Shown here one piece after another: positions 1,524 to 25,705 of a stretch of 51,382 nt of DNA (position 1 is its first letter; each line of letters starts with the position of its first letter). Below the pieces are notes generated by a model. That model ran no database searches, was not told where the DNA came from, and saw nothing but the letters and a program-made list of their open reading frames with translations. Origin of the DNA: Pararhodobacter sp. (GTDB lineage: Bacteria; Pseudomonadota; Alphaproteobacteria; Rhodobacterales; Rhodobacteraceae); contig JAFIEK010000029.1 of assembly GCA_020832545.1 (NCBI GenBank), positions 1 to 51,382 of the forward strand. Reading direction: 5' to 3'. Position numbers and translations under genes: made by a program.

Positions 1524-3008
1524 ATGGGACTTGATCATTTCCCCGACCGCTCGAACTGGTTCGTGCCCAATGCCTCTATGCGCGACGCCTATGCGCCAAA
1601 CCACGCCGAGAGCTTCATTCAGGATCTGGAGGTCATCGGCGAACTGCCGTCAGACCTGAACGGCATGTATGTGCGCAACGGGCCAAACCCCGCCCACGCC
1701 CCGCATGGCCGCTATCATTGGTTTGATGGCGATGGCATGTTACATGCCGTGCGCTTTCAGGGCGGCAAGGCGACCTATCGCAACAAGTTCGTCGAAACCG
1801 ACGGCTTGCAGGAGGAGCGCGCTGCCGGGCAATCCGTCTGGCCCGGCCTGAAAGAGCGGATGCCCGAGGGCAAACTGCCCGATGACGCCATGAAGAACGT
1901 CTCGAATACCGATGTGACATTCCACAATGGGAAGCTTTACTCGATGTGGTATCGCGGCGGGGCGGTCTATACCGTGGACCCGTTCACCCTGAACACGTTG
2001 GGCAAGCTGGAACATGATCCGCGCCTTGTGGGCCTGCAGATTTCGGCGCACAGCCGGGTCGATGAAAGCACCGGCGAGTTCATGTTCTTCGCCTATGGCA
2101 ACCGCGCGCCCTACATGCATTACGGGGTGATCGGTGCGGATGGGGCGGTGAAAACCTTCATTCCGGTACCGCTGCCCGGCCCTCGCCTGCCGCATGACTG
2201 CGCGGTCACGCCCAACTACACGATCTTGCATGACTTCCCGCTGATCAACAACCCCGAGGCGCTGAAGCAGGGCCGTTACAGCCTTGAATTCCATCAGGAC
2301 TGGCCCACCCGCTACGCCGTCATCCCGCGCCACGGCACCACAGACCAGATCCGCTGGTTCGAGTTCGAGCCGCGCTACATGCTGCATGTTGCCAACGCTT
2401 GGGAAGAGGTGAATGCGCGCGGCGAGACCGAGATCGTGATGATCGGCACCCCATATGTCATGCCGCGTGATTACGACGGCAGCCTTGATGTGAAACGGCT
2501 GTTGTTCACCGTCGGCACGCAGGGCACCGATTATGAGCTGTATCAGTGGCGGATGAATCTGGTCACCGGCGAGACGAAAGAGGGCGTTGTCGATGACGTG
2601 CTGAACTCGGAATTTCCGATGATCAACACCGCCTGGCAGGGCCGCAAGAACCGCTTTTCCTATAACGTGCTGATGGGCCGTCCGCGTACGCTGGAACAGC
2701 CGCGTTTCTCCGGCCTTGTGAAGTATGATTTCGATACCGGCGGGGCCGTGGCCTATCATCCGGGTGAGGGGTTCTGGTTCTCGGAAGCGCCCTTTGCCCC
2801 GCGCGATGGTGCCACCGAGGAAGACGATGGCTATGTCGTGGGTTTCGTGTGGAACGGGCTGGCCGAACGCTCCGAGGTCTGGGTGACGGATGCGCGCGAT
2901 GTCTCCAAGGGGCCGGTCGCGCGGGTGATCATGCCGGTGCGCGTGCCGCATGGCTTCCATTCCTGCTGGGTGCGCGAGGCGCAGCTTCAGGCGGCGGCGG
3001 TGGCCTGA
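1524..3008 (+). CDS. Carotenoid cleavage oxygenase family (carotenoid/lignostilbene dioxygenase-like)
   Basis: A 494-residue non-heme iron oxygenase of the RPE65/carotenoid cleavage dioxygenase family, which cleaves a C=C bond of carotenoids, apocarotenoids, stilbenes or phenylpropenes to aldehydes or ketones. The family signature YHWFDGDGMLHAV is near residue 70. Four iron-ligand histidines can be assigned: H176 (SAHSR), H224 (PHDC), H288 (HVANAWEE) and H479 (PHGFHSCW). Their spacing matches the family. The start at 1524 has a GAAGGAGA site and gives the usual length. There is no signal peptide, so it should be cytoplasmic. It is the first gene of the operon and overlaps the lipocalin gene (TGATG at 3006-3010). 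Family is secure; substrate is not. Confidence 0.9.
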   Translation: MGLDHFPDRSNWFVPNASMRDAYAPNHAESFIQDLEVIGELPSDLNGMYVRNGPNPAHAPHGRYHWFDGDGMLHAVRFQGGKATYRNKFVETDGLQEERAAGQSVWPGLKERMPEGKLPDDAMKNVSNTDVTFHNGKLYSMWYRGGAVYTVDPFTLNTLGKLEHDPRLVGLQISAHSRVDESTGEFMFFAYGNRAPYMHYGVIGADGAVKTFIPVPLPGPRLPHDCAVTPNYTILHDFPLINNPEALKQGRYSLEFHQDWPTRYAVIPRHGTTDQIRWFEFEPRYMLHVANAWEEVNARGETEIVMIGTPYVMPRDYDGSLDVKRLLFTVGTQGTDYELYQWRMNLVTGETKEGVVDDVLNSEFPMINTAWQGRKNRFSYNVLMGRPRTLEQPRFSGLVKYDFDTGGAVAYHPGEGFWFSEAPFAPRDGATEEDDGYVVGFVWNGLAERSEVWVTDARDVSKGPVARVIMPVRVPHGFHSCWVREAQLQAAAVA

Positions 3009-3442
3009 TGGAGGCGCGCGCGCTTGAAGGCACATGGCATCTGACCGGCTGGGAAATCGTCCAGCCGGACGGGGCCGTGACCTATCCGTTCGGGCCGGAT
3101 GCGACGGGGGTTATCGTGTATTCCGGTGACGGCACCATGTCGGCCGCCATCGCCCGGGCGGGGCGCGCGCCGTTTGCGGGCGGCAACCCGCGGCGTGCGT
3201 CCGAGCACGAACGCGCCTCTGCCGCCGACAGCTATTTCCACTATGCCGGGCCTTACCATGTCACCGAGGAAGAGGGCCGCCCGCTGGTGGTGCACCGCGT
3301 GACCCATGCGCTGAACCCCGGTTTCGTAGGCACTGAGCAGCGACGCTTCATCGACCTTGATGGCGACAACCTGACCCTTTCTGCGCGCGAGGCGCTGCCC
3401 GATGGCCGCCACCGTGACCACCGCCTGATCTGGAGACGCTGA
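3008..3442 (+). CDS. Lipocalin-like domain protein
   Basis: A 144-residue protein opening with LEGTWHLTGWEIVQPDGAV and the TGVIVYSGDGTMSAAI block, typical of the bacterial lipocalin-like family (Lipocalin_5 type), a small beta-barrel expected to hold a hydrophobic ligand. The HYAGPYHVTEEEG and HRVTHALNPGFVGTEQ blocks also fit. No signal peptide, so cytoplasmic. The start codon overlaps the oxygenase stop and its own stop overlaps the aldehyde dehydrogenase start (both TGATG), so it is translationally coupled on both sides. A role in binding, shielding or converting the oxygenase substrate or product is inference from position. Confidence 0.8.
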   Translation: MEARALEGTWHLTGWEIVQPDGAVTYPFGPDATGVIVYSGDGTMSAAIARAGRAPFAGGNPRRASEHERASAADSYFHYAGPYHVTEEEGRPLVVHRVTHALNPGFVGTEQRRFIDLDGDNLTLSAREALPDGRHRDHRLIWRR

Positions 3443-5118
3443 TGTTCGACCGCCACCGCGATACCTTTGCACAGGCGCAGGAGGCCTGCCGCACACGCGC
3501 CTGCTGGTCGCCCTTTCCGGAGATGCCGGGCAAATATCCCGATACCGAGGCCGCGCAGGCCCGTGGCAAGGCCGCTTTCGAGGGGCAGTTGAACCAACCC
3601 TTCAAGCTGGATCTGCCCGGCGTGACCGGCCGGACGGGCGAGGAGGTTTCGCCCTATACCCAGGCCCCGCTGGCCATCACCTATCCGCAGGCCGACCCGG
3701 ACGCGCTTTTTACCGCCGCCCGCGCGGCCATGCCTTCATGGGCCGGGGCCGGCATTGACACCCGCATCGGCGTGCTGATGGAATGCCTGGACCGGCTCTA
3801 CCGTGACCATATGTTCGAGATCGTGCAGGCGGTGATGCACACCGCCGGGCAAAGCGCGAACATGGCCTATGCCGGCTCGGGCGTGAACGCCCTTGACCGC
3901 GGGATCGAGGCACTGGTCTATGCCGAGGCCGCGATGCGGTTCGTGACGCCGACAGCCGATTGGGCGCGGCGTTTTGGATCGCAAAACATACATCTGGAAA
4001 AAACCTACCGGCTGGTGCCGCGCGGGGTGGCGGTGTGTTTTTCCTGCGCCTCGTTCGCGACATGGAACGCCTGGCCCTCGGCTCTCGCCTCTCTGGCGAC
4101 CGGCAATGCGGTGATCCTGAAGCCGCATCCGATGAGCGTGTTGCCGATGGCGATCACGGTGCGGGTATGGCGGGACGTGCTGGCAGAGGCCGGTTTTGAC
4201 CCCAATCTGCTGACGCTTTGTGTCGATACGGTTGCGGAACCGCTGGGTAAGGTGCTGATCAAGCACCCCCATTGCGCGATGGTCGATTTTACCGGCTCCA
4301 CCACCTTTGGCCAGTGGGTTGAGGCCAACGCCCACCCCGCGCTGGCCTTCACCGAAACGGCGGGCTGCAACACGGTGGTGCTTCAGGGCGCCGATGATCT
4401 GGACGCCGCGATCCGCTCGCTGGCGACCACGATGTGCATGTTTTCGGCCCAGATGTGCACTTCGCCGCAAAACATCTACCTGCCGCCCGAAGTGCAGACG
4501 CCGGGTGGCCCCGTGCCGCGCGATGAAGTGGCGCAGCTGCTGGTGGCGGCGGTGGCGGGGCTGGTGGATGACCCCAAGCGCGCGGCGATGATCCTTGCCA
4601 CGATCCAGTCGCCGAACACCCTGAACGACCTGTCCCGCCTTGCTGCCGTTGGCCGGGAACGTGGCACGGTGCTGCTCGAAAGCCGCCCCTATCCGCACCC
4701 GGATTTTCCCAACGCCCGCACCGCCACGCCCCTGATGCTGGCTGTCACCCCTTCTGAGCGCGATCTTTATGCGGGGGAATGTTTTGGCCCGGCCTCGTTC
4801 CTGATCGCCTGCGACTCGGCAGAGGATGCGCTGGAGCGCGCAACAGTCGATGTCAGCGAATGCGGCGGGCTGACGGCCTTTGTGTATACCACAGACGAAA
4901 ATTTCATCACCCGCGCCGAAGACGCCTATGCCAGCGCCGGGGCGCAGCTGACCATCAACTTGACCGGCGCGATGCCGTTGAACTTCGCGGCTGCCTACAG
5001 CGATTACCATGTCACGGGGCTGAACGGCGCGGGCAATGCCACGCTCACCTCGCTGGCCTTTGTCGCCTCACGCTTTGCCATCGCGCAATCGCGCCGCCCG
5101 GCGAGGGCCGCGTCATGA
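3442..5118 (+). CDS. PaaN-type aldehyde dehydrogenase
   Basis: A 558-residue member of the aldehyde dehydrogenase superfamily, closest by motif and length to the phenylacetate-degradation protein PaaN group. The N-terminal TRACWSPFPEMPGKYP block and the QMCTSPQNIYLP active site are characteristic. The nucleophile should be C339 and the general base E305 (FTETAGCN). NAD(P)-binding is suggested by the VPRGVAVCFSCASFATWNAW and GSTTFGQW stretches. It would oxidise an aldehyde, plausibly one released by the upstream oxygenase, to an acid. It starts on TGATG overlap with the lipocalin gene and its stop overlaps the next start (ATGA at 5115). Paa ring-cleavage genes are not present here, so it is not necessarily a phenylacetate gene. 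Confidence 0.85.
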   Translation: MFDRHRDTFAQAQEACRTRACWSPFPEMPGKYPDTEAAQARGKAAFEGQLNQPFKLDLPGVTGRTGEEVSPYTQAPLAITYPQADPDALFTAARAAMPSWAGAGIDTRIGVLMECLDRLYRDHMFEIVQAVMHTAGQSANMAYAGSGVNALDRGIEALVYAEAAMRFVTPTADWARRFGSQNIHLEKTYRLVPRGVAVCFSCASFATWNAWPSALASLATGNAVILKPHPMSVLPMAITVRVWRDVLAEAGFDPNLLTLCVDTVAEPLGKVLIKHPHCAMVDFTGSTTFGQWVEANAHPALAFTETAGCNTVVLQGADDLDAAIRSLATTMCMFSAQMCTSPQNIYLPPEVQTPGGPVPRDEVAQLLVAAVAGLVDDPKRAAMILATIQSPNTLNDLSRLAAVGRERGTVLLESRPYPHPDFPNARTATPLMLAVTPSERDLYAGECFGPASFLIACDSAEDALERATVDVSECGGLTAFVYTTDENFITRAEDAYASAGAQLTINLTGAMPLNFAAAYSDYHVTGLNGAGNATLTSLAFVASRFAIAQSRRPARAAS

Positions 5119-6026
5119 CCCTGCGCCTTCCCGTCTTCGCAGCACCCATGTTCTTGATCTCCGGCCCTGATCTGGTGATCGCCGCCTGCAAGGCCGGGAT
5201 CATCGGTGCCTTTCCCACGCCAAACGCCCGAACAATTGAACAGCTTGACGACTGGATGACCCGTATCAACGCGGAAACAAAAGGCGCGGCACCGTGGTGC
5301 GCCAACCTTGTCACCCATTCGTCAAACGCGCGGCTGCCGCAGGATCTGGCGATGGTGGCAAAGCACAAGCCGTCGTTCGTGGTCACCGCGCTTGGCTCAC
5401 CCAAACCCGCCATCGACGCGGTGCAGGCCTATGGCGGCAAGGTGTTTGCCGATGTGACCTCGATCACCCTTGCGAAAAAGGCCGTGGCGGCTGGGGCGGA
5501 CGGGCTGGCCTGCATCTGCGCGGGCGCGGGCGGGCATACCGGTGCGCTGTCGCCCTTTGCCTTTGTCTCGGCGGTGCGGGAGTTTTTTGACGGGCCGGTG
5601 GTGGTGGGCGGCGGCATAACCGATGGCTATGGGCTGGCCGGTGCCATCGCGGCGGGGGCCGATTACGCCTATATGGGCACCCGCTTTCTGGCCGCCAATG
5701 AGAGTCTTGCACCGGATGCCTACAAGGACATGGTGGTACAGGCGAGTGTTGATGATCTGCTCGTCAGCCCGGCGATTACCGGCACTAATGCAAGTTGGCT
5801 CAAACCCTCGCTGATTGCCAACGGGCTGGACCCTGACCATATGCCCGACAGCCCGGACCGCGCCTATGATTCCGGCCAGTCGTTCAAGGGCAAGCGCTGG
5901 TCGTCGGTCTGGTCGGCGGGGCAGGGGGTGGGCGCGGTGCGCGCAACAGAGCCGGTGGCGCAGATCGTGAATCGGCTTGAACAGGAATACAACGCCGCCC
6001 GCGCGCGGCTTTGCCCCACAGCATGA
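5115..6026 (+). CDS. Nitronate monooxygenase-like FMN protein
   Basis: A 303-residue TIM-barrel flavoprotein of the nitronate monooxygenase/2-nitropropane dioxygenase family. It shows the LPVFAAPMFLISGPDLV opening, the FADVTSITLAKKAVAAGADG strand-helix, the GAGGHTGALSPF loop with the conserved histidine, and the FMN-phosphate region VVGGGITDGYGLAGAIAAGA. Family members oxidise alkyl nitronates or act as enoyl reductase-like flavoproteins, and many in catabolic operons have unknown substrates. The start at 5115 overlaps the previous stop; the longer upstream frame is antisense-like extension and is discarded. Reaction here is unknown; placement between a dehydrogenase and a thiolase suggests a step on a CoA ester or unsaturated acid. 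Confidence 0.85.
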   Translation: MTLRLPVFAAPMFLISGPDLVIAACKAGIIGAFPTPNARTIEQLDDWMTRINAETKGAAPWCANLVTHSSNARLPQDLAMVAKHKPSFVVTALGSPKPAIDAVQAYGGKVFADVTSITLAKKAVAAGADGLACICAGAGGHTGALSPFAFVSAVREFFDGPVVVGGGITDGYGLAGAIAAGADYAYMGTRFLAANESLAPDAYKDMVVQASVDDLLVSPAITGTNASWLKPSLIANGLDPDHMPDSPDRAYDSGQSFKGKRWSSVWSAGQGVGAVRATEPVAQIVNRLEQEYNAARARLCPTA

Positions 6027-6066
6027 ACACCGACAGCCCATGAAAACCGACAGCTAAGAGGCTCGC

Positions 6067-7248
6067 ATGTCCCATAATCCGGAACACGCCGTCATCATCG
6101 GCGCCCTGCGCACGCCACGCGGGCGCGGCAACGCCAAGGGCGCATTGGTCGGGGTCAAGCCGGTTGACCTGCTGGCCGCCCCGCTCATGGCGCTGAAAGA
6201 CCGCCATGGCCTGACCGGCCCGCTGGCCGAGGCCGCGTTTGGCTGCGTCACCCAGACGGCGGGGCAGGGGGCGAATATCGGTAAACTGGCGCTGATCGCG
6301 GCGGGCTATGAAGATGCCGTGCTGGGGCTGACGGTGAACCGTTTTTGTGCCTCGGGCCTCAGCGCGCTGCGCATCGCTGCGCTGGCCGCCGTGGCCGAGG
6401 ACGGGCTGGCGATCGCGGGTGGCGTTGAAAGCATGTCGCAGGTGCCGATGGCCTCCGACAAGGGGCCGCTGACCCATGACCGCGATTTTCAGGCTAGCGC
6501 CGGGCTGATCCCGATCGGCATCGCCGCGGATGCGGTCGCCACGCTGGAAGGCTTCACCCGCGCCGATCTGGATGCCTATGCCGTGGAAAGCCAGGCCCGC
6601 GCCACCCGCGCGCGTTTTGCCTCGCTGGTGCCGGTCGGTGGGCTGGAAGCCGATGAAACCCCCCGCCCCGGCACCACAGTTGAGAGGCTGGCCGGCATGG
6701 AGCCGGCATTCGCGGAGATGGGCGAAAAATGGGGCATTGACGCGATGCTCGCCAAACGGTTGGGCCTGCCGGGTATCGAGCATGGCCACCACGCGGGCAA
6801 CTCGCCAGCGATGGCCGATGGTGCCTCGGCCGTGCTGGTGGCGTCTGCGGCGGCGGCGGCGCGCGCCGGGCTGAAACCCCGTGCGCGGATTCTGGCAACC
6901 GCGGAAGTGTCGGTTGACCGGGTGATGGCGCTGACCGGCGCAGTGGATGCCAGCCGTGCGGCGCTGGAAAAGTGCGGCCTCACCGCCGATGACATCGACC
7001 TGTTCGAGGTCAATGAAAGTTTCGCGGGCCTGATGCTGCACTACCTGCGGCACATGGGCATCGGGGCCGAGCGCCTGAACGTCAACGGCGGTGCGATTGC
7101 GCTGGGGCATGCGATGGGCTCCACCGGCACCGCGCTTCTGGGCACCGCGCTGGATGAGCTGGAAGCGCGCGGTGCGCGCCGTGCGCTGGTGTCGGCCTGC
7201 GGCGCGGCAGGGCTGGCCAGTGCCATCGTGATCGAGCGGATCGGATGA
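6067..7248 (+). CDS. Thiolase family protein (acetyl-CoA acyltransferase)
   Basis: A 393-residue thiolase that should cleave a 3-oxoacyl-CoA to acetyl-CoA and a shortened acyl-CoA, or run in reverse. The nucleophile is C94 in NRFCASGLSAL. The histidine pair region HHAGNSPAMADGASA, GGAIALGHAMGSTG with H348, and the second catalytic cysteine C378 in SACGAAG are all present. The last motif departs slightly from the usual CIGGG form. It sits 40 bases after the FMN protein and overlaps the regulator start by ATGA. It indicates that the pathway ends in beta-oxidation-like thiolysis, although no enoyl-CoA hydratase or hydroxyacyl-CoA dehydrogenase is encoded in the operon. Confidence 0.9.
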   Translation: MSHNPEHAVIIGALRTPRGRGNAKGALVGVKPVDLLAAPLMALKDRHGLTGPLAEAAFGCVTQTAGQGANIGKLALIAAGYEDAVLGLTVNRFCASGLSALRIAALAAVAEDGLAIAGGVESMSQVPMASDKGPLTHDRDFQASAGLIPIGIAADAVATLEGFTRADLDAYAVESQARATRARFASLVPVGGLEADETPRPGTTVERLAGMEPAFAEMGEKWGIDAMLAKRLGLPGIEHGHHAGNSPAMADGASAVLVASAAAAARAGLKPRARILATAEVSVDRVMALTGAVDASRAALEKCGLTADDIDLFEVNESFAGLMLHYLRHMGIGAERLNVNGGAIALGHAMGSTGTALLGTALDELEARGARRALVSACGAAGLASAIVIERIG

Positions 7249-8189
7249 GCAGCACGCCCGCCACCCTTGACCTGGACCTGATGCGCGAGGCGATCTCGAC
7301 CTCGACGCTCAGCCATGCGCTGAAGTTCATCGGTGATCGCTGGAGCGTGCAGGTGCTGATGGGCGCCTTCATGGGCATGAAACGTTTTGACGAGTTTCAG
7401 GAACGGATCGGCGTGCCGCGCCGCACCCTGTCTGACCGCCTCAAGATGCTGGTGCACCTGGATATTCTGCGGCCGCGTCTGTATCAGGAGCGCCCGGAAC
7501 GCTACGCCTATCACCTGACGCGCAAGGGCATGGCGCTTTACGGCATGGTGCTGATGGTCTGGGAATGGGAGGTGCAGTTCGGCAACCAGCGCCTGTCCCT
7601 GCCCACAAGGCTGATCCACCGCCCCTGCGGCCATGCATTCCGCCCGCAGATGACCTGCACCGCCTGCGGCGAGCAGGTCACCATGCGCGATCTGGAATTC
7701 ACCCTTCGCCCCAACCCGCGCCTGCCGCATGACACCGGCGAGCCGCTGCGCACGCCAAAGATATCGGCGCAGGATGCGGGTTTCGCCTCGCTCGCGCTGC
7801 GGCTTGACCGCTGGTCGCTGCTGATCATATCCGCGATCACCCTGGGCTGCCGGTATTTCGACCAGTTGTCCTATGTGCTGCGCATCGGCACGGCGGTGCT
7901 CAGCCGCCGGTTGGCGACGATGGTGGAAACCGGGCTGTTGCAGGTCGCCACCGACCGCGATGACGGGCGCAGGCGGGTCTATCTGCTGACGCCGGCCAGC
8001 CGGGCGCTGTTTTCCTACATCATCCTCTTGGCGACCTGGGCCAATGACCACCAGTTCCACGAGCCCAGCTCGATCCGCCCGCGCCACCGCACCTGCGGCG
8101 CACCCTTGCAACCACGCGTGACCTGCAGCCATTGCCATGCGCCGGTGCACGCCTGGGATGTCAGCTTCGAGACAGGAGAGCGCCCATGA
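7245..8189 (+). CDS. Tandem HxlR-type transcriptional regulator
   Basis: A 314-residue protein with two HxlR winged-helix units in one chain. The first (about 18-125) has LKFIGDRWSVQVLMGAFMGM, and the second (about 180-275) has LDRWSLLIISAITLGCRYFD. Each is followed by a cysteine cluster: CGHAFRPQMTCTACGEQV after the first, and CGAPLQPRVTCSHCHAPV after the second. These look like rubredoxin/zinc-ribbon knuckles. HxlR proteins usually are single-domain homodimers, so this is a covalent pseudo-dimer. It lies inside the operon, overlapping the thiolase stop and the livH start, and probably controls the operon in response to substrate, metal or redox state. Confidence 0.85.
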   Translation: MSSTPATLDLDLMREAISTSTLSHALKFIGDRWSVQVLMGAFMGMKRFDEFQERIGVPRRTLSDRLKMLVHLDILRPRLYQERPERYAYHLTRKGMALYGMVLMVWEWEVQFGNQRLSLPTRLIHRPCGHAFRPQMTCTACGEQVTMRDLEFTLRPNPRLPHDTGEPLRTPKISAQDAGFASLALRLDRWSLLIISAITLGCRYFDQLSYVLRIGTAVLSRRLATMVETGLLQVATDRDDGRRRVYLLTPASRALFSYIILLATWANDHQFHEPSSIRPRHRTCGAPLQPRVTCSHCHAPVHAWDVSFETGERP

Positions 8190-9070
8190 TGGGAGCGTTT
8201 GAACTATTCGCGCAGGTCACGGTGAACGGCATCGCCACCGGCGCGATCTATGCGCTCGTCGCGCTGGGGATCGTGCTGATATACAAGGCGACCGAGGTGC
8301 TGAACTTCGCGCATGGCGATATCCTCGTCTTCGCCGCCTTTTCCGCCTGGGCCATGATGAGCTGGTGGGGCCTGCCGTTCTGGGCAGCGCTTGTGATTGC
8401 GGCAGGGGCGGTGGGGGTGCTCAGCTACGGGCTGGACGCCGTGGTGATCCGCCGCATCGCCGGGCAGCCGCAGTTTGCGGGCGTCATGCTGACTATCGCG
8501 CTGGCCTTCATGATCCGCGGTCTGGTGGGCATGACCTATGGCACCGAGGCGCAGACCATCGTCACGCCATGGTCCGGCCAGTCGACAACCGTGCTGGGCG
8601 TGGCGGTCGCGCATCTGTCGGTGGTGATCATGCTGGTGGTGCTGGCAATCACGCTTGGCCTGTGGCTGTTCTTTCGCCACACGAAACTGGGCATCGCCAT
8701 GCAGGCCGCAAGCCAGAACCAGCTTGCCGCGCATCTCAACGGGGTGCGGGTAAAGCGGCTCAATTCGCTGGTCTGGGCGCTGGCGGGGGCGACCGCGGCG
8801 GTGGCGGGCATCTTTCTGGCGCCGATCGCCTTTGTCGATACCAGCCTGTGGTTGATCACGCTGAAAGCGCTGGCGGCGATTGTGCTGGGGGGCTTCGGCA
8901 GCCTGCCGGGCGCGGTGATCGGTGGCATTCTGATCGGCCTGATCGAGCAATATGCGGGCGTGTATCTGCCGCACGGGTTCAAGGATATCGCCGCCTATCT
9001 GGTGCTGATCGCGGTGTTGATCATCCACCCGCGCGGACTGATGGGCGAAGCCCACGGGCGGAGGGTCTGA
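8186..9070 (+). CDS. livH: Branched-chain-type ABC transporter permease LivH
   Basis: A 294-residue integral membrane permease with the LivH hallmark ALGIVLIYKATEVLNFAHGD near the N-terminus and about eight hydrophobic segments. The ILGGFGSLPGAVIGGILIGL stretch near the C-terminus is the family's cytoplasmic-loop signature. The start at 8186 overlaps the regulator stop (ATGATG; 8189 is an alternative). With LivM, LivG, LivF and the binding protein it forms a complete HAAT-type importer. Such systems often carry aromatic acids, amides or dicarboxylates rather than amino acids when found inside catabolic operons, so the substrate is probably the compound degraded by this operon. Confidence 0.9.
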   Translation: MMGAFELFAQVTVNGIATGAIYALVALGIVLIYKATEVLNFAHGDILVFAAFSAWAMMSWWGLPFWAALVIAAGAVGVLSYGLDAVVIRRIAGQPQFAGVMLTIALAFMIRGLVGMTYGTEAQTIVTPWSGQSTTVLGVAVAHLSVVIMLVVLAITLGLWLFFRHTKLGIAMQAASQNQLAAHLNGVRVKRLNSLVWALAGATAAVAGIFLAPIAFVDTSLWLITLKALAAIVLGGFGSLPGAVIGGILIGLIEQYAGVYLPHGFKDIAAYLVLIAVLIIHPRGLMGEAHGRRV

Positions 9071-9071
9071 C

Positions 9072-10148
9072 ATGCGGTTCGATTACCATACCCGCTACCG
9101 CCAAAGTTTTGCGCTGCTGAATTCGCCTGCGTCATGGGTGCTTTACGGCCTCTTGCTGGCGGCGCTCGTTATCGTGCCGCAATTCCTGTCCACCTATATG
9201 GTCGGTGAGCTGAGCTATGTGCTGATCCTTTGCGTGGCCGCCATGGGGCTGATGGTGCTGACCGGCTTCACTGGCCAGATCAGCCTTGGCCATGCCGCGT
9301 TTGTGGCAATCGGCGCCTATGCCCACGCCTGGCTGATGGCGCAGGGCCTGCCGATGATCGTGGCGATGCCGCTGGCCGCGCTGATCGCGGGCTTCGCGGG
9401 GCTGGTCGTGGGTATTCCGGCGATCCGGGTGCATGGCCTTTATCTGGCGATGGTGACGCTGGCGTTTTCCGTGGTGGTTGAACAGGTGATCGGCCTGTGG
9501 CGGTCGGTCACCGGGGGCTTTACCGGGATGCTGGTAGCGCGGGCCGAGCTGTTCGGCCTGTCGCTCACCTCGCCGCGCGCGTTTTACTATTTCGCGCTGG
9601 CGGTGGTGGTGCTGGTGTTGCTGGGGCTTTTGAACCTGCTGCGCTCGGGCATTGGCCGATCGTTTACCGGCGTGCGTGATTCCGAGGCCGCGGCCTATGC
9701 GCTGGGGATCGACGTGGCGCGCGTCAAGGCGGGCGCGTTCGCGCTGTCGGCGGCCATTACCGGGCTGGCGGGCGCGATGATGGCGCATCACATCGGCTAT
9801 CTGACGCCGGATGCCTTCACGCTGCTTCTGTCGCTCGATCTGGTGCTGATGGTGGTGATCGGCGGGCTGGGCAGCCTGCGCGGGGCCATTTTGGGGGCGA
9901 TCCTGATCTCGCTGTTGCCCAACGCCATTTCCGTGCTGAAAGGCTTTCTGCCCGCCGCCATGTCGCGCCAGTTCGGGCTGGAGATCTTCGTGGCGGGCGC
10001 GGTGCTGGCGTTCTTTGTGCTGTTCGAGCCGCGCGGGCTAAATGGCCGCTGGCTGAAGATCCGCGCCTTTCTTGAAAGCTATCCGCTTTATCGGCGTGAC
10101 ATGTTCCGCCGCCAGAAAACCTACATGAAATCGGAGCGTAACAGATGA
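9072..10148 (+). CDS. livM: Branched-chain-type ABC transporter permease LivM
   Basis: A 358-residue membrane permease. It contains the LivM signature TGFTGQISLGHAAFVAIGAY, the GIPAIRVHGLYLAMVTLAF segment and the C-terminal VIGGLGSLRGAILGAILI coupling-loop region. The start lies one base after the livH stop and the stop overlaps livG by ATGA, so these permeases are made together. The basic tail (YRRDMFRRQKTYMKSERNR) is cytoplasmic. It pairs with LivH to form the transmembrane channel of the importer. No lesions are seen. Confidence 0.9.
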   Translation: MRFDYHTRYRQSFALLNSPASWVLYGLLLAALVIVPQFLSTYMVGELSYVLILCVAAMGLMVLTGFTGQISLGHAAFVAIGAYAHAWLMAQGLPMIVAMPLAALIAGFAGLVVGIPAIRVHGLYLAMVTLAFSVVVEQVIGLWRSVTGGFTGMLVARAELFGLSLTSPRAFYYFALAVVVLVLLGLLNLLRSGIGRSFTGVRDSEAAAYALGIDVARVKAGAFALSAAITGLAGAMMAHHIGYLTPDAFTLLLSLDLVLMVVIGGLGSLRGAILGAILISLLPNAISVLKGFLPAAMSRQFGLEIFVAGAVLAFFVLFEPRGLNGRWLKIRAFLESYPLYRRDMFRRQKTYMKSERNR

Positions 10149-10909
10149 CCGCGCCCTTGTTGCATCTGGATAGTGTAGGGCTGGCCTTCGGCGGCTTGAA
10201 GGCGGTGTCTGACCTGACAATCGAGGTCAGGCAGGGCGAGGTTCTGGCGGTAATCGGCCCGAACGGGGCGGGCAAGACCTCGATGCTCAATCTGGTGACA
10301 CGGGTGTTTCGCGCCACTTCGGGGCAGATCCTGTTCAAGGGGCGTGATATCTCGCGCCTGCCGCGCCAGCAGATCGCACATCTGGGCATCGCGCGCACCT
10401 TCCAGAATATCGAATTGTTCGATGCCGCCACGGTGCTCGATAACCTTCTGCTGGGCCGCCACCGCTTTGGCGGGGGGCCGTGGTGGGCGCAGTTGATGCG
10501 CACCCCCTCATTGACCCGGCTGGAAGAGGAACACCGCGCCCGCGTCGAAGAGGTGATCGAATTTCTGGATCTCTCGGCATGGCGGGGCGCGATGGTGGGC
10601 GGGTTGCCCTACGGCGTGCGTAAGGTGGTGGAGCTAGGCCGCGCGCTGGCGTCAGAGCCGGAGGTGCTGTTTCTGGATGAGCCGGCCTCGGGCCTGAACC
10701 CTGAAGAAACCCGGCGTCTCGCCTTCTGGATCGACGATATCCGCACCGATCTGGGCATCACGGTGGTGATGATCGAACACGACATGTCACTGGTCAATGC
10801 TATTGCCGACCGGGTGATCTGCATGGCGCAGGGCCGGGTTCTGGCGCAGGGCAGCCCGGCCGATGTGCAGGCGCATCCTGATGTCGTTGCTGCGTATCTG
10901 GGGGGCTGA
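10145..10909 (+). CDS. livG: Branched-chain-type ABC transporter ATPase LivG
   Basis: A 254-residue ABC ATPase. Walker A is GPNGAGKTS (about 38-46) and Walker B is VLFLDEPASGLNPEE (about 172-186). The LivG-specific AHLGIARTFQNIELF stretch is present. The ABC signature reads LPYGVRKVVELGRAL, departing from the common LS(Y/G)GQ form but typical of some LivG proteins. The D-loop and switch histidine are in VVMIEHDMSLV. It is one of the two motor subunits and overlaps livM by four bases. Confidence 0.9.
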   Translation: MTAPLLHLDSVGLAFGGLKAVSDLTIEVRQGEVLAVIGPNGAGKTSMLNLVTRVFRATSGQILFKGRDISRLPRQQIAHLGIARTFQNIELFDAATVLDNLLLGRHRFGGGPWWAQLMRTPSLTRLEEEHRARVEEVIEFLDLSAWRGAMVGGLPYGVRKVVELGRALASEPEVLFLDEPASGLNPEETRRLAFWIDDIRTDLGITVVMIEHDMSLVNAIADRVICMAQGRVLAQGSPADVQAHPDVVAAYLGG

Positions 10910-10911
10910 TC

Positions 10912-11682
10912 ATGTTGCTGGATGTGCAGAATCTGGAAACCTGGTATGGCCCCATCGCCGCGATGAAGGGCGTCAACCTGTCGGTCGATGAGGGCCGGAT
11001 CGTCGCGGTTCTGGGCGCGAACGGGGCGGGCAAGACCACGCTTCTGAACACGCTCGCGGGCGTGGTGGACCCGTTCAAGGGCGCGGTGATGTTTCAGGGT
11101 GTGCCGGTTCACGGGCTGGATGCCGACGAGGTGGCGCGGCGCGGGTTGATCCTGGTGCCTGAGGGGCGGCAGGTTTACCCGTTCCTGAGCGTGGCCGAAA
11201 ACCTTGCGATGGGCGCCTATGCCCGCCATGACCGCGATGGCGTCGCCCGCGATACCGAGCGCGTCTATGGCTGGTTCCCCCGCCTGCGCGAACGGATGGG
11301 CCAGCACGCGGGGCTTTTGTCTGGCGGTGAACAGCAGATGGTGGCGATTGGCCGGGCCTTCATGTCCAGCCCGAAGCTGTTGATGCTTGACGAGCCCAGC
11401 CTTGGCCTGTCGCCCCTTCTGACGCAGGAGATTTTCGCCATCATCCGCCGGATTCGGGATGAGACCGGCACCGCCGTGCTGGTGGTCGAACAGAACGCCG
11501 CCGTGGCGCTGAAGCATGGCGATGACGGCTATATCATGGAACTGGGCCGCATTGTTGCCGCCGATACCTGCGCCGCGCTGGCGCAAAAGGAGGACGTGCG
11601 CGATGCCTATCTGGGCGGCGGCGCGGACCATGGTACCAGCGGCACTAAACAACGCTGGACCCGCAAGCGGAACTGGCGCTGA
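10912..11682 (+). CDS. livF: Branched-chain-type ABC transporter ATPase LivF
   Basis: A 256-residue ABC ATPase with Walker A GANGAGKTT, signature LSGGEQQMVAIGRA, Walker B LLMLDEPSLGLSP and switch region VLVVEQNAAVAL. The LVPEGRQVYPFLSVAENLA stretch is the LivF hallmark. It begins two bases after livG. The C-terminal tail (GTSGTKQRWTRKRNWR) is basic and longer than usual. It is the second motor subunit of the importer; the stop is 10 bases before the ligase start. Confidence 0.9.
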   Translation: MLLDVQNLETWYGPIAAMKGVNLSVDEGRIVAVLGANGAGKTTLLNTLAGVVDPFKGAVMFQGVPVHGLDADEVARRGLILVPEGRQVYPFLSVAENLAMGAYARHDRDGVARDTERVYGWFPRLRERMGQHAGLLSGGEQQMVAIGRAFMSSPKLLMLDEPSLGLSPLLTQEIFAIIRRIRDETGTAVLVVEQNAAVALKHGDDGYIMELGRIVAADTCAALAQKEDVRDAYLGGGADHGTSGTKQRWTRKRNWR

Positions 11683-11692
11683 GGGGGTGAAC

Positions 11693-13516
11693 ATGCAGCA
11701 AACCATCGATTTTCAGGGCCAGACCACCCCGGCGCGCATTTTCCGCGACAGGGCACGCGCATGGGGCGACAGCCCGGCACTGCGCCACAAGCGCCGCGGG
11801 CTGTGGCAAAGCTTCAGCTGGAACGACTACTATGCGCAGGCTCGCGCTTTCGGGCTGGCGCTGAATGAGATGGGGGTCACGCGCGGCGATTGCATCTCGG
11901 TTCTGGCGGAAAACCGGCCGGAATGGCTGATTGCCGATATCGGTGCGCAATGCATGGGGTTTGTCGGCAATGGCGTCTATCCGACATCTTCGCCCGGGCA
12001 GGTCTGCCATGTGCTGCGCGATTCCGGCTCGCGCGTGTTGGTGGTCGAAAATCAGGAGCATCTGGACAAGGCGCTGGAGGTCCGCGCGGACTGCCCGGCG
12101 CTGTTGCAGATCATCGTGATCGAGCGCGAAGGGCTGCGCGATCTGGCCGATCCGTCGATCACCTTCTGGGACGATGTGATCGCGCGCGGGCAGGATCTGG
12201 CCGCCACGCAGGCGGAGATATTCGAGGCCGCGATTGACGCGGGCGAACCCGGCGATCTGGCGTTTCTGGTCTATACCTCGGGCACCACCGGCGCACCCAA
12301 AGGCGCGATGATCACCAACCGGAATGTCATTTTCCAGATGACCAAGACCGGCGAGTATCTCGATGTCGGCGTGGGCGACAAATCGCTCTCGTTCCTGCCG
12401 CTTTGCCATATCGCCGAGCGTATGGCCTCGGTCTACAACCCGCTGGCGGTGGGGCTGGTGGTGCATTTCCCGGAAAACGCGGGCACCGTGGCCAATGACC
12501 TGCGCGAGGTTGCGCCGCATGTCGTTTTCGCCCCACCGCGGTTCTGGGAGAAGATGCATGCGCAGATCGAGCTGTTCATGCGCGATGCGGTCGGCCCGGC
12601 GCGGTGGATGTATCGCCGGGCGTTGAAAAGCGGGCAACCGGGGGTTGAGGCGCGCTTGCAGGGCCGTAAACCGCCCGCGCTGGCACCGTGGGACAGGCTG
12701 GCGCAATGGCTGGCGTTTCGAAATATACGGGTGTTTCTGGGCTTGCAGAACTGCCGCTCGGCCCTGACCGGTGCCGCGCCCGTGCCGCCTGATCTGATCC
12801 GATGGTTCCTGTCGATCGGGGTGGAACTGCGCGAGGCGTTCGGGATGACCGAAACGTCGGGCTTTTGTTCCTCCACCCCACCGGGCGGTATCAAGCTGGG
12901 TTGGGCCGGGCGCTGTGCCGAAGGCACCGAAATCAGGATCGGCGATCAGGGCGAAATTCTGGTGCGCGGGCCCAATGTCTTTGTCGGATACCACGGCCAG
13001 CCCGACAAGACCGCCGAGACGATTGATGCAGATGGCTGGCTGCATACCGGCGATGTGGGCGAGATTGACAGCGACGGCTATCTGGCGATCCGCGACCGGT
13101 TGAAGGACATCATCATCACCGCAGGCGGCAAGAACATCACGCCCACCCAGATCGAAAGCCAGCTGAAATTCTCGCCGTTCATCGCCGATGTGGTGGTGAT
13201 CGGTGAGGGGCGGCGGTATCTGACGGCGCTGGTGATGATCGATCAGGAGCATGTCGCGCGTCATGCGCAGGATAACGCCATCCCCTATACCGATTTCGCC
13301 AGCCTAACGCGGGTTGCGCAGGTGGTGGACCTGATCGGCAGCGAGATCGAACAGATCAACCCGCGTCTGGCCCGTGTCGAACAGATCAAGGCGTTCCGCA
13401 TCATCGATCAGTTGCTCACCGCCGAGGATGAGGAACTGACGCCCACCATGAAGCTCAAGCGCAAGGTGATAGCGCAGAAATATGCTGGCCTGATTGACAG
13501 CATGTATGTGCGCTGA
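11693..13516 (+). CDS. AMP-forming acyl-CoA synthetase
   Basis: A 607-residue ANL-superfamily ligase of the long-chain fatty acyl-CoA synthetase (FAA1) type. The AMP-binding motif LVYTSGTTGAPKGAM is near residues 192-206. AFGMTETSGF and the hinge region GWLHTGDVGEIDSDGYLAIR followed by DRLKDIIITAGGKNI are complete, and the C-terminal lysine region (TPTMKLKRKVI) is present. It would activate an acid with ATP and CoA. The start at 11693 follows a GAGGGGG site; the longer frame back to 11516 lies in livF and is rejected. In the operon it probably activates the imported acid or the acid made by the aldehyde dehydrogenase. Confidence 0.9.
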   Translation: MQQTIDFQGQTTPARIFRDRARAWGDSPALRHKRRGLWQSFSWNDYYAQARAFGLALNEMGVTRGDCISVLAENRPEWLIADIGAQCMGFVGNGVYPTSSPGQVCHVLRDSGSRVLVVENQEHLDKALEVRADCPALLQIIVIEREGLRDLADPSITFWDDVIARGQDLAATQAEIFEAAIDAGEPGDLAFLVYTSGTTGAPKGAMITNRNVIFQMTKTGEYLDVGVGDKSLSFLPLCHIAERMASVYNPLAVGLVVHFPENAGTVANDLREVAPHVVFAPPRFWEKMHAQIELFMRDAVGPARWMYRRALKSGQPGVEARLQGRKPPALAPWDRLAQWLAFRNIRVFLGLQNCRSALTGAAPVPPDLIRWFLSIGVELREAFGMTETSGFCSSTPPGGIKLGWAGRCAEGTEIRIGDQGEILVRGPNVFVGYHGQPDKTAETIDADGWLHTGDVGEIDSDGYLAIRDRLKDIIITAGGKNITPTQIESQLKFSPFIADVVVIGEGRRYLTALVMIDQEHVARHAQDNAIPYTDFASLTRVAQVVDLIGSEIEQINPRLARVEQIKAFRIIDQLLTAEDEELTPTMKLKRKVIAQKYAGLIDSMYVR

Positions 13517-13577
13517 CCCCATCGCGGGGCAGCGCCGCAAAGAAGAAGCAAGGTTCATCTCAGGGAGGAGACCGACC

Positions 13578-14756
13578 ATGAACTTCAATCGTCGTCAGAT
13601 ACTTGCCACCAGCGGGGCCGCACTGGCGCTCGCCACGGGGCTGCGCCCGCTGGGTGCCCATGCGGCTGGCGTCAGCGCCACCGAGATTGTCGTAGGTATG
13701 CACAGCGACCTCAGTGGCCCGGCCGCGGCCGGAATGCCCGCGCTGATCAACGCCACGCAATTGGCGTTTGATCAGGTTAACGAGGCCGGGGGCATCCATG
13801 GCCGCCAGCTTCGCCTGATCGTCGAGGATAACGGCTCGCAGCCGCAGCTGGCCGTGCGCGCGGTGCAAAAGCTGATCCGTCAGGATGATGTCTTTGCGCT
13901 GCTCAACCCCTTCGGCTCTGGCACCAATGCCGCCACCATCGGTATGGCGGTGGAAGAGGGGCGGGTGGTCTTTGCGCCCTGGGGGGCCTCGGGTGTCTTC
14001 CACCAGATCGCGGGCAACAACCCGCTCTTGTTCACCACGGTACAGAACTACAACACCACCACCCAGCGGGCGATGGAATGGGCGCTAGAAAACTGGGGTG
14101 TCGAGCGGATCGGCGTGATCTATCAGGAAGGCCCGTTTGGTGACCTGATCCGCGCGGGCATCAACGGCGCGCTGTCAGAGGCCGGGATGAGCGTGACCGA
14201 AGAGGCCGCCTATCGCCCCGGCGACATCGACTTTTCCAGCCAGGTTGCCCGGCTCAGGGCTGCCAACTGCGACCTGATCGTGGCGGGCACCATCACCCGT
14301 GAAACGGTGGCGGTGGCGTCTGAGGTCAAAAAGCTGAACTGGGACAGCGTGAAGGTCCTGACCGCGATCCCCGGGCGCTCATCGGTGGTGTTGCGGCTGG
14401 GGGCTGAGGATGTCGAGGGATTGTATGGCATCGGCGGCTGGCAATTGCATGGCGAAGATACCGGGGACGAAGGTGCGCGGGCCTTCATCGACGCCTATCA
14501 GGCTGCGCATGGCGCCTTCCCCGACGAAAACGCGGCCAACGCCTATTCCTATGCCAACTGGTTCCTAAAGATCGTCGAGGCCGCAGGCGAGGATCTGACA
14601 GCCGACAGCTTCGCTGCCGCCGCGCAAGGTGTTACGCATGACGACTTCACCACCTATGGTGAATTCTCGTTCGAGGCCAACCACGCCATGCCTGAGCTGA
14701 TCAGAATTGAGCAGGTGCAGGACGGTCGCTGGGTTTCTCTAAGCGATCCGATCTGA
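13578..14756 (+). CDS. Periplasmic substrate-binding protein of the LIV importer
   Basis: A 392-residue type I periplasmic binding protein. The N-terminus MNFNRRQILATSGAALALA has a twin-arginine-like motif and ends in an AHAAG cleavage region, so export by Tat is possible. The mature part begins with EIVVGMHSDLSGPAAAGMP, followed by AFDQVNEAGGIHGRQLRLIVEDN and QPQLAVRAVQKLIRQDDVFA, all typical of LivJ/LivK-like amide and aromatic binders. The start has a CAGGGAGGAGA site. It is the last gene of the operon, 61 bases after the ligase, and supplies ligand to LivHMGF. Confidence 0.9.
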   Translation: MNFNRRQILATSGAALALATGLRPLGAHAAGVSATEIVVGMHSDLSGPAAAGMPALINATQLAFDQVNEAGGIHGRQLRLIVEDNGSQPQLAVRAVQKLIRQDDVFALLNPFGSGTNAATIGMAVEEGRVVFAPWGASGVFHQIAGNNPLLFTTVQNYNTTTQRAMEWALENWGVERIGVIYQEGPFGDLIRAGINGALSEAGMSVTEEAAYRPGDIDFSSQVARLRAANCDLIVAGTITRETVAVASEVKKLNWDSVKVLTAIPGRSSVVLRLGAEDVEGLYGIGGWQLHGEDTGDEGARAFIDAYQAAHGAFPDENAANAYSYANWFLKIVEAAGEDLTADSFAAAAQGVTHDDFTTYGEFSFEANHAMPELIRIEQVQDGRWVSLSDPI

Positions 14757-14788: not shown

Positions 14789-14808
14789 CCGGGGCGAAAA
14801 CGCCCCGG
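14789..14808 (+). terminator. Hairpin after the LIV operon
   Basis: A perfect 8-bp stem, CCGGGGCG (14789-14796) and CGCCCCGG (14801-14808), with an AAAA loop lies 33 bases after the binding-protein stop. There is no T-run after it, so termination efficiency is uncertain. It may instead protect the mRNA end. Confidence 0.5.
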
Positions 14809-17789: not shown

Positions 17790-18980
17790 TCATGAGCCGC
17801 CATTCAGCCCAGTCCCTGCATAGAGCCAAGACATGGTGTCAAACCATTGCTCTGGTGTCTTGGCGCTCATGATGGCATCGCGCAAAGCTGCGTGGGCACC
17901 GGCGGGATGATAGATATGCGTCCCTACCTCGCGCGAATGCAACTGCACCCGCGCAGTGCGCAGCCGGCGTCGTTCGCTGTAGCCGTTAAGCGCACGCGCG
18001 ATGTCCCCGCCAGACGCTTCCACCTCGGCTGACAGGCAGACCGCGTCTTCCATCGCCATGCACGCACCTTGTGCAAGGTACTGCATCATCGGATGCGCCG
18101 CGTCGCCCAGCAGGGCCACCCGGCCATCAACCCAGTTCATCACCGGGTCGCGATCGCACAGCACCCAGCGTTTCCAGTCGCGGCCCCGCTCAATGATTTC
18201 GCGCGCGACCGGGGCGACATGTTCAAAACCCTTGCGCACTTCGTTATGGGTGACGGATTCACCGGCCACCGGTTCGGGCGCGTTGTTGTGGTAGGTGACC
18301 ACCAGATTGAACATCTTCCAGCCCTTGAGCGGATAATGCACAATGTGGCACTTCGGCCCCGCCCAGAGCGTTGCCGCGTTCCAGCGCAGATCCTCAGGCA
18401 TGTCCTCAGTGGGGATCACCGAGCGGTAGGTTGTATGCCCCGACACCCGGGGCGGGCCGTCGCCGACGACTGTCTTGCGAATATTCGACCACAGCCCGTC
18501 CGCCCCGATCAGCGCTGCCCCGGTGACTTGCGTGCCATCGGCCATCATGGCCGTCACCGACGCGCCGTCCTGTTCATAACCCAGAACTTCGGCGGAGGTG
18601 CGTAGCTCGATCAGATCATGGTCTTCGCAGGCGCGCAGAAAAACGCCATGCAGATCGCCGCGATGGACCACGGCATAAGGGTTGCCGAACCGCGTCCGGA
18701 ACGCCTCCGTGGTGGGGATGGTACAGATCTGTTGCCCGCTCAACGCATCCATAAGGCGCAACCCGTCGACATAGACGGCCAGTTCGCGCGCCCGGTCGCC
18801 CACGCCCAGATAGTCAAAAGCATGAAAGGCGTTCGGTCCCAGCTGGATTCCGGCCCCGATCTCGCCCAGTCGCGACGACTTTTCCAGCACCGTGCTGGCG
18901 ATGCCTTTTCTGGCAAGGCCGACCGCAGTCGCCAGGCCGCCAATGCCGCCGCCAGCAATCAGGATGCGCGGGTGTTCCAT
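17790..18980 (-). CDS. 3-hydroxybenzoate 6-hydroxylase-like FAD monooxygenase
   Basis: A 396-residue class A flavin monooxygenase. It has the dinucleotide-binding motif ILIAGGGIGGLATAVGLARK at about residues 6-25, the DG motif (ALIGADGLWSNIRKTV) and the FAD-ribityl motif VALLGDAAHPMMQYLAQGAC. The C-terminal WFDTMSWLYAGTG resembles 3-hydroxybenzoate 6-hydroxylases and salicylate hydroxylases. Product gentisate would feed the next three genes. The start at 18980 follows a GAGGAAAG site, and the longer frame to 19262 is rejected. It is the last gene of the gentisate operon, 59 bases after the isomerase. Assignment to 3-hydroxybenzoate rather than salicylate 5-position chemistry rests on context. 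Confidence 0.8.
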   Translation of the reverse strand: MEHPRILIAGGGIGGLATAVGLARKGIASTVLEKSSRLGEIGAGIQLGPNAFHAFDYLGVGDRARELAVYVDGLRLMDALSGQQICTIPTTEAFRTRFGNPYAVVHRGDLHGVFLRACEDHDLIELRTSAEVLGYEQDGASVTAMMADGTQVTGAALIGADGLWSNIRKTVVGDGPPRVSGHTTYRSVIPTEDMPEDLRWNAATLWAGPKCHIVHYPLKGWKMFNLVVTYHNNAPEPVAGESVTHNEVRKGFEHVAPVAREIIERGRDWKRWVLCDRDPVMNWVDGRVALLGDAAHPMMQYLAQGACMAMEDAVCLSAEVEASGGDIARALNGYSERRRLRTARVQLHSREVGTHIYHPAGAHAALRDAIMSAKTPEQWFDTMSWLYAGTGLNGGS

Positions 18981-19039
18981 CTCTCTTTCCTCCCCCTCAT
19001 GGCCGACGGCACCGCTTATCGGGCGGGTCGGCGCAAAGC

Positions 19040-19690
19040 TCAGTTCTCGGTGTCCGGCTGGTTGTCGGGGCGCGCATTTTGAAAGGCGGCCAGACCCTCG
19101 CAGGCGTCGAACACTGCCTGCACTCGGGGCATTGCTGCCATATCCACCCCAAAGCGCCGGGCCGAATAGACCTGTGGAACGATGCAGATATCGGCCAGCC
19201 CCGGGTGCGCGCCAAAGGCAAAATCGCCGTCCCGTGCGGTATCGCGCAACAGGGCTTCGCACGCGGTTAGCCCGTCACTTATCCAGCGCTGACACCAGCG
19301 GTCCAGCGCAGATTGATCCTGACCCAGTTCCTCGCGCAGATACTGCAACACCCGCAGGTTCTGAAGCGGATGAATATCGCAGGCGATGGTCTGAGCGAGT
19401 GCACGCACCTTTGCACGGGCAAATGGATCTGAGGGCAGCAGCGGCGGCTCAGGCTGAAGTTCATCCAACCATTCGATGATCGCAAGCGACTGTGTCAGAA
19501 CCCCTTCATCCGTCTCAAGCGTCGGCACCAGCCCCTGCGGGTTGAGGGCGCGGAATACTGGTGTCTTCTGTTCACCGCCACCTCGGCGCAGATGCACTGA
19601 GGTAAAATCAGGGGACAGGCCCTTGAGATTGAAGGCGATCCGGCATCGGTGTGCCGAGGAGCTGCGGAAATAGCCATGAAACCGCATCAT
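19040..19690 (-). CDS. Maleylpyruvate isomerase (zeta-class GST fold)
   Basis: A 216-residue glutathione S-transferase-fold protein of the zeta class. It has the N-terminal motif [18 protein letters not shown], the GSH-binding [20 protein letters not shown] and [10 protein letters not shown], and the helical half with [16 protein letters not shown] and [12 protein letters not shown]. It would convert maleylpyruvate, the gentisate ring-cleavage product, to fumarylpyruvate. The gene overlaps the hydrolase gene upstream (start at 19690 or 19687, MM). The ring-cleavage context argues for maleylpyruvate rather than maleylacetoacetate as substrate. Confidence 0.85.
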
Positions 19691-21416: not shown

Positions 21417-21449
21417 CGTACCCTCCCTGATCCGTTCGATTGCCTTAAT

Positions 21450-21469
21450 GGGTAGCATACTTATCATTT
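21450..21469. promoter_or_regulatory. Candidate MarR operator in the gentisate promoter
   Basis: TGGGTAGCATACTTATCA lies 33-50 bases upstream of the gentisate dioxygenase start. Its core GTAGCATACT also occurs, on the other strand, in the perfect inverted repeat before the TRAP operon (24993-25010). This copy is only partly symmetrical. Control by the adjacent MarR protein is inferred from position and the shared core. Confidence 0.5.
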
Positions 21470-21585
21470 GTCTGCCGGTCAATTCCGGGCGTAAACTGGA
21501 GAAGTAGGGCTTGGGTCCTCTGATCACTTGTCGTACAGGGGAGGACCATCGGTCGCGGCACCGCATCTGAGGGCAAGGACAGTCT

Positions 21586-25702: not shown

Positions 25703-25705
25703 CCG

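Follow-up and report, generated by a model that had tools for sequence, protein, structure and literature searches.

The window analysed here, the entire contig C58 (51,382 nucleotides; JAFIEK010000029.1) of the 4.37-Mb genome of a Pararhodobacter sp. (GCA_020832545.1), carries at positions 1524 to 14756 an operon of twelve co-directional plus-strand genes, all with open frames, built around a four-histidine carotenoid-oxygenase-family enzyme (CCO). We lean towards reading this operon as one copy of a transferable catabolic module around a distinct CCO clade. A conserved module with its own CCO clade, built from known kinds of enzyme, is real, and it is recognized by its gene content, its conserved linkage, its catalytic motifs and, in the alignment, a clade-specific change in the second shell of the iron. 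If our reading is correct, the operon belongs to a catabolic pathway not yet described in the open-licence literature, in which cleavage by a CCO-family enzyme is tied to CoA activation and thiolysis, and it points to a widespread natural carbon source of freshwater, marine and soil bacteria. A preliminary description of the window, made from the letters alone, had listed eleven genes plus a binding protein and knew of no described pathway with this exact set; all twelve genes were found, with their families assigned by profile matches (LivF by its counterpart in a relative), and our search of open-licence titles and abstract openings likewise retrieved no description of a pathway with this gene set.

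Conserved gene neighbourhood of the oxygenase

The preliminary description had also proposed a dedicated catabolic unit, to be checked by comparing neighbourhoods across Rhodobacteraceae, and that comparison speaks for such a unit. The gene order recurs in Rhodobacter sp. NTK016B, in Pararhodobacter oceanensis and in a Pararhodobacter metagenome-assembled genome (MAG), and partially in MAGs of Limnohabitans/Comamonadaceae. In NTK016B the same order continues to the acyl-CoA ligase (74%) and the periplasmic binding protein (SBP; 72%), and the ligase directly follows LivF in relatives too.

For a wider comparison, genome contigs were scanned with a 12-sequence CCO profile, which matched at least 591 stretches; relatives are encoded by 510 of these, of which the 80 best, at 79 loci, were retained. 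Reading frames were clustered for these loci, eight other loci and the window (88 loci in all, with L026 and L024, a near copy of L013, outside the clustering), a procedure that misses some genes found by tblastn, such as the lipocalin of L028. The families found beside the CCO are an AMP-forming ligase (53 of the 88 loci), an NMO-type FMN protein (40), an SCP2-type thiolase (38), a double-HxlR regulator (34), a thiolase (32), an alpha/beta hydrolase (25), a lipocalin (24) and a PaaN-type aldehyde dehydrogenase (21). We then scored seven partner families within 10 kb (CoA ligase, NMO, SCP2-type thiolase, HxlR, thiolase, lipocalin and PaaN) at 86 loci, omitting the window and L016, which lies on the same contig as L029. 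At least one partner is present at 68 loci, at least three at 45 and at least four at 29; among the 30 loci with at least 7.9 kb on both sides the corresponding counts are 26, 19 and 15, and all seven partners occur in Erythrobacter (L097) and Qipengyuania (L100). The partner families recur beside the CCO clade in other Proteobacteria and in Actinobacteria, where the copies include those of isolates (Nocardia, Rhodococcus sp. RD6.2 and Amycolatopsis); the Chloroflexi case is a single MAG (L066), and MAG labels can be wrong. Since much of the gene set recurs in such distant bacteria, it looks like a real pathway.

Using the double-HxlR gene as an independent bait in 394 genomes of the family, with at most five candidates scored per genome, we found it adjoining a clade CCO in the window's own genome (C58 and C33), in G204 and in G215; in G162 the contig ends before such a neighbour could show. 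At ten control loci with other CCO types, the lipocalin, NMO, thiolase, HxlR and this ligase were found in none at E <= 1e-8, whereas an aldehyde dehydrogenase match of 27-29% occurs in three and Liv-type matches occur in three. Because the partner families recur beside the clade CCO and none of lipocalin, NMO, thiolase and HxlR was found at the controls, we regard the set as a transferable catabolic module.

Several observations weigh against this reading. The controls were queried without the SCP2 thiolase, and in seven of the ten the flanks were short (3-5 kb in six, while L021 is a contig of 6 kb). No partner lies within 10 kb of the CCO at eighteen of the 86 clade loci, including four of the 30 whose flanks are complete, and the double HxlR occurs without a clade CCO in four genomes of the family. 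AMP ligases and thiolases both belong to broad families that are common in bacteria, and at least two ligase types are mixed in the AMP group, with matches to the window ligase down to 23%; co-occurrence of the ligase is therefore weaker evidence than that of lipocalin, PaaN or HxlR, and the case is carried by the combination together with lipocalin, PaaN, NMO and HxlR. The LivHMGF importer lies outside the conserved core: it is found in Rhodobacteraceae and some Comamonadaceae, while the transport genes near other CCOs are of the TRAP type (the cluster on C33 of the same genome) or, elsewhere, TctC, MFS, porin or TonB, and in L033 the CCO is placed behind the SBP. Furthermore, the fold comparison described below does not separate plant from lignin-type relatives, and the window's own copy may be impaired, given that two genes kept by several relatives are gone and debris of an insertion sequence (IS) lies upstream.

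The oxygenase clade and its iron second shell

The four iron-ligand histidines, in line with the four-histidine oxygenase of the preliminary description, are all present in the window CCO (H176, H224, H288 and H479), and His is found at these positions in 116 of 116 aligned CCOs. The AlphaFold2 model (pLDDT 89.8) is a seven-bladed propeller that matches CCO folds in the Protein Data Bank. Plant CCD1 (Osmanthus fragrans, 7vud and 9m3e), likewise a four-His enzyme, is the nearest solved relative both by Foldseek E-value and by sequence: the CCO profile scores 397.6 bits against CCD1, 295.8 against LsdA and 226 against Synechocystis ACO variants, and the single sequence gives the same ranking (CCD1 254.6, LsdA 177). 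An apocarotenoid-like substrate, one of the earlier candidates, agrees with this affinity, although the TM-scores (TMq about 0.83 to CCD1 and lignostilbene dioxygenase (LSD) chains, with LSD structures at about 0.82-0.84) do not separate CCD1 from LSDs. CCD1, whose defining activity is 9,10-cleavage of (apo)carotenoids, further resembles the window CCO in the occluding Thr and in the carboxylates found at position 363, where CCD1 has Asp, and at position 421; it differs in being only 32% identical, in having Glu where the clade has Tyr143, in lacking Asp130 and in that the window enzyme sits in a CoA-linked operon.

A FastTree phylogeny was built from 13 references and 103 clade members, the latter being CCOs that match at least 90% of the query length (104 matches, less two from L016, plus the window). 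Rooted on LSDs, it places the 103 members together with a support of 0.63, among few references, and CCD1 adjoins them with a support of 1.0. The tree that the preliminary description had suggested yields a separate clade beside CCD1 and not with the LSDs, which served as its root, and it holds no isoeugenol monooxygenase reference. Among the matches listed, the nearest named relatives by CCO identity are those of Rhodobacter sp. NTK016B and Pararhodobacter (80-81%).

The window CCO shares superfamily, fold, four His and Thr with the LSDs (LsdA, NOV1, LSD4 and the type carried on bisphenol plasmids), but it reaches only 241.5 bits on the curated LSD model (cut-off 800) and 201.7 on the NOV2 model (cut-off 650), and its neighbours differ. 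A Tyr/Lys pair, which we take to be LSD Tyr101/Lys134, the phenol-binding residues of the substrate site, is present in all five LSD-type references (LsdA, L117, L115, L118 and L119; L117 scores above the LSD cut-off, while the last three match LSD best but remain below it). In the window CCO the pair is replaced by Leu and Trp; the 103 clade CCOs have Leu/Ile/Val and Trp/Phe/Tyr/Met at these positions and never Tyr plus Lys. On the hidden Markov model cut-offs and these residues, an LSD identity for this CCO was rejected. The 8'-apo-carotenoid 13,14-dioxygenases (NF052295; NACOX1 type) are of the same superfamily, but the window CCO scores 247 bits against a cut-off of 675, and their reference L113 retains the Glu that is replaced by Tyr143 here. 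Of the papers that bear on these enzymes, one (PMC12997858) treats LSD/PinU enzymes, and a review reports that of two carotenoid cleavage dioxygenase (CCD) genes per species (SaCCO/PpCCO) only one had cleavage activity (PMC5133782).

The clade differs from the references in the second shell of the iron. CCDs are described as having a 4-His cluster in which three His are hydrogen-bonded to second-sphere carboxylates (PMC12051055). At position 143 the clade has Tyr (96 of 103), Ser (5) or Phe (2) and never Glu, versus Glu in 13 of 13 references, and Asp130 is found in 103 of 103 clade CCOs versus none of the 13. Position 143 is presumably the equivalent of ACO Glu150; variants of ACO Trp149, Glu150 and T136 occur among the structure titles of the fold search. 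Glu is present at positions 363 and 421 in 103 and 102 of the 103, respectively, and we assume these to be the other two second-shell carboxylates. We would like to note that MAFFT placed a gap beside the lost Glu and gave R/L/Q/M/H at this position, while the gap-free count from the hairpin turn, which was used, gave Tyr/Ser/Phe; Glu appears in neither. The patterns by which loci were selected exclude positions 130 and 143, and the 103 CCOs are related rather than independent. In the model, strands 130-134 and 137-141 form a hairpin (mean pLDDT of residues 121-130, 76) whose register puts residues 130 and 143 on the same face, and Asp130 may thus substitute for the lost Glu contact to His. 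Second-sphere carboxylates at fixed places are the rule for three of the iron-ligand His, and this clade would be an exception that can be tested.

Partner enzymes, proposed pathway and rival explanations

The lipocalin has no signal peptide by eye and is probably a cytosolic barrel (AlphaFold2 pLDDT 96.8); its fold matches are to lipocalin and nitrobindin, all weak (best E 4.5e-3), and a sequence search retrieved no solved relative. The SBP has a Tat-like leader by eye, and 4gnr is its sole solved relative at E <= 1e-15; for these reasons, neither protein names the ligand. The aldehyde dehydrogenase narrowly misses the cut-off of its family model (Table 1), carries the Cys motif and is the only match in its genome at E <= 1e-20. 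As in the phenylacetate system, a PaaN_2-like dehydrogenase and a thiolase share one operon, but the phenylacetyl-CoA oxygenase is absent from it; we rejected this gene as the genome's phenylacetate gene because PaaA, the one other paa gene searched for, lies on C50. The NMO-type protein exceeds the Pfam gathering score of 28, reaches 109.6 bits on the FabK model (cut-off 453) and keeps the GGH motif. Its homologues in five plasmid regions (45.9-47.7% identical) adjoin genes of CoA-ester metabolism (CaiB, enoyl-CoA hydratase, AMP ligase, acyl-CoA dehydrogenase or feruloyl-CoA synthase), which argues for a role in CoA-ester chemistry. The thiolase keeps all of its motifs NRFCASG, NESFAG, GHAMGSTG and SACGAAG. 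Its nearest solved relatives are 3svk, an acetyl-CoA acetyltransferase, and Rv0859 FadA (4b3h). Because it resembles FadA, the beta subunit of the mycobacterial beta-oxidation complex, a housekeeping partner may supply hydration to an operon that has no enoyl-CoA hydratase. The double-HxlR regulator has one CxxC per half, at 138 and 294.

Every reaction, the order of reactions and the substrate class are what we infer from these parts. The SBP and LivHMGF would import a small anionic conjugated compound, which the AMP-forming ligase would convert to its CoA thioester; the four-His CCO would split a C=C bond with O2 to give carbonyl fragments, the PaaN-type dehydrogenase would oxidise the aldehyde, perhaps still CoA-bound, the NMO/FabK-like FMN protein might reduce or desaturate the conjugated acyl-CoA, and the thiolase, plus the SCP2-type thiolase in relatives and on C33, would liberate short acyl-CoAs. 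The lipocalin may hold a hydrophobic or reactive intermediate, and the double HxlR may sense substrate or aldehyde. We favour a small conjugated isoprenoid or apocarotenoid-type acid or enone as the substrate rather than a stilbenoid, because of the affinity to CCD1, the loss of the presumed phenol-binding pair, the transporter types, and the CoA ligase and thiolases; abscisic acid (ABA) and ionones are candidates only. Tentatively, and with less conviction than for the module itself, we suggest that a four-His subfamily whose second iron shell is rewired by a Glu-to-Tyr change and an invariant Asp may act on a CoA-linked natural product that is neither carotenoid nor stilbenoid, and may anchor an undescribed pathway common to Proteobacteria and Actinobacteria and, judging from one MAG, perhaps to Chloroflexota. 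As a separate observation, APH-type kinase genes are found near the CCO at L069, at L070 and at seven loci in the range L041-L051, some of which also have a gene of the acyl-CoA dehydrogenase family; the combination is reminiscent of the 4-hydroxyacyl-CoA kinase/dehydrogenase pair (LvaA/ACAD11) and is a possible hint at the substrate.

Among narrower explanations, catabolism of ABA or an ionone-type C13-C15 apocarotenoid, with import of anionic ABA, CoA activation and shortening of the side chain and cleavage of a side-chain C=C by the CCO, is rather unlikely, although it fares best. The proximity of CCD1 by sequence, transporter types that would fit small acids, the presence of copies in the actinobacteria Rhodococcus sp. 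RD6.2 and Nocardia, and DUF1295/steroid-reductase-like genes in 6 of 88 loci, which could act on a ring enone, are all compatible with it. Rhodococcus sp. P1Y does shorten the side chain of ABA, with enzymes still to be named, but the scheme put forward for it invokes a Baeyer-Villiger step and removal of a C2 unit, with no CCO, and the text available gives no genes for the shortening (PMC9599779); a further paper on ABA degradation (PMC12509608) names no ABA genes. Moreover, many of the hosts are aquatic MAGs.

Catabolism of lignostilbenes or other lignin-derived stilbenoids, in which an LSD-type CCO would yield two aromatic aldehydes next to a gentisate island, is unlikely, and stilbenoids, which the preliminary description had listed among possible substrates, are accordingly disfavoured. 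The LSD match, the TM-scores equal to those of CCD1 and a 3-hydroxybenzoate/gentisate island at 17.8-28.7 kb of the window would suit it. So would the occluding Thr (T129), present in 103 of 103 clade CCOs and reported as invariant in stilbenoid-cleaving CCDs (PMC12051055), but this Thr is also found in CCD1 and three other non-LSD references, as in most references. Against it stand the score far under the LSD cut-off and the replaced Tyr/Lys pair; LSD-type loci have no lipocalin, NMO, thiolase or HxlR in flanks of 3-5 kb, the gentisate homologue is separated from the CCO by about 44 kb in NTK016B, while P. oceanensis and the MAG L030 have it on a different contig, and two aryl aldehydes would need neither a CoA ligase nor thiolases.

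The preliminary description had called the operon self-contained, which does not fully hold, because the importer type varies and this copy is missing both the tandem CCO and the SCP2 thiolase of several relatives. In L027, L028, L029 and L034 a second CCO (about 40-42% identical) lies directly upstream and an SCP2 thiolase lies between NMO and thiolase; the window operon has neither. The two losses look stepwise, since L030, the nearest CCO in the tree, has no SCP2 gene at that place yet retains the tandem CCO. Upstream of the window CCO, where these relatives have the tandem CCO, there is a partial IS110 element and apparently non-coding sequence, and a hidden remnant of the second CCO in 1-1560 was rejected on a best match of only E 1.4. 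A decayed island, with genes kept by inertia after IS insertions and deletions and no working pathway here, would account for this debris and for the missing thiolase. We nevertheless consider it improbable: the twelve frames are open, motifs are intact where checked, L030 likewise has no SCP2 thiolase between NMO and thiolase yet retains the rest, and another CCO cluster, on C33, includes an SCP2 thiolase, the only SCP2 homologue in the genome at E <= 1e-20 (54%). That the cell processes carotenoids of its own making (for pigment turnover, or to form retinal or an apocarotenoid signal) instead of catabolising an imported compound is very improbable, for although the enzyme belongs to the CCO family and a phytoene/squalene-synthase family gene lies elsewhere in the genome, no carotenoid-biosynthesis family is among the recurrent neighbour families scanned (which do not cover every neighbour), the CCO is linked to genes for import, a CoA ligase and thiolases, and the 8'-apo-carotenoid model is missed by far.

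Operon layout and other features of the window and genome

The close packing noted in the preliminary description was borne out for 6 of the 11 gene junctions, where the genes overlap in the TGATG/ATGA manner; at the remaining five they are separated by 1, 2, 10, 40 and 61 bases (Table 1). The unit probably ends with the SBP, because Liv-type homologues behind the NTK016B SBP run on the other strand. The hairpin behind the SBP scored terminator-like on the minus strand only, and the region holds 18 terminator-like sites versus 9.9 +- 2.9 in shuffles. A promoter scan of the region found 3, versus 3.0 expected.

Table 1. Features of the operon and its borders, in window coordinates.
Feature	Position	Strand	Support
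IS110-family transposase, partial, at contig start	26-694	+	PF02371 2e-22
Carotenoid-oxygenase-family enzyme (CCO), four-His	1524-3008	+	PF03055 422 bits
Lipocalin_5 protein	3008-3442	+	PF13924 115 bits
PaaN_2-type aldehyde dehydrogenase	3442-5118	+	TIGR02288 575.5 bits, cut-off 578.75
NMO/FabK-type FMN protein	5115-6026	+	PF03060 103 bits
Thiolase, active-site motifs complete	6067-7248	+	PF00108/PF02803
Tandem double-HxlR regulator	7245-8189	+	PF01638, 2 stretches
LivH-type permease	8186-9070 (start 8186/8189)	+	PF02653
LivM-type permease	9072-10148	+	PF02653
LivG-type ATPase	10145-10909	+	PF00005, PF12399
LivF-type ATPase	10912-11682	+	Open frame; 83% match at same place in Rhodobacter sp. 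NTK016B
AMP-forming acyl-CoA ligase, FadD11-like	11693-13516	+	NF038343 435 bits, cut-off 950
Periplasmic binding protein (SBP), Peripla_BP_6	13578-14756	+	PF13458 234 bits
8-bp GC hairpin behind last gene (SBP); possible unit end	14789-14808	not assigned	

The second CCO cluster of the genome (L019, G000:C33:23000-42900) comprises a CCO, a double HxlR, an IclR, a hydrolase, an NMO, AMP ligases, an SCP2 thiolase and a TRAP DctM. At G000:C43:5283-6834 there are two SQS_PSY matches of equal score in inverted orientation, which may be an artefact of the assembly.

The gentisate-type island occupies 17790-28736 on the minus strand of the window, with a 3-hydroxybenzoate 6-monooxygenase (579.9 bits, cut-off 459), two gentisate-dioxygenase-like cupins below cut-off, a GST, FAH-family hydrolases, TRAP DctM/DctP and a nitrilase-like gene. 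Functional coupling of the operon to this island was considered and rejected, because the island's homologue is distant or on another contig in relatives. Further along the contig, which carries several mobile elements, 29944-30903 encodes an integrase-core (rve) transposase and 31120-32634 an IS66 transposase.

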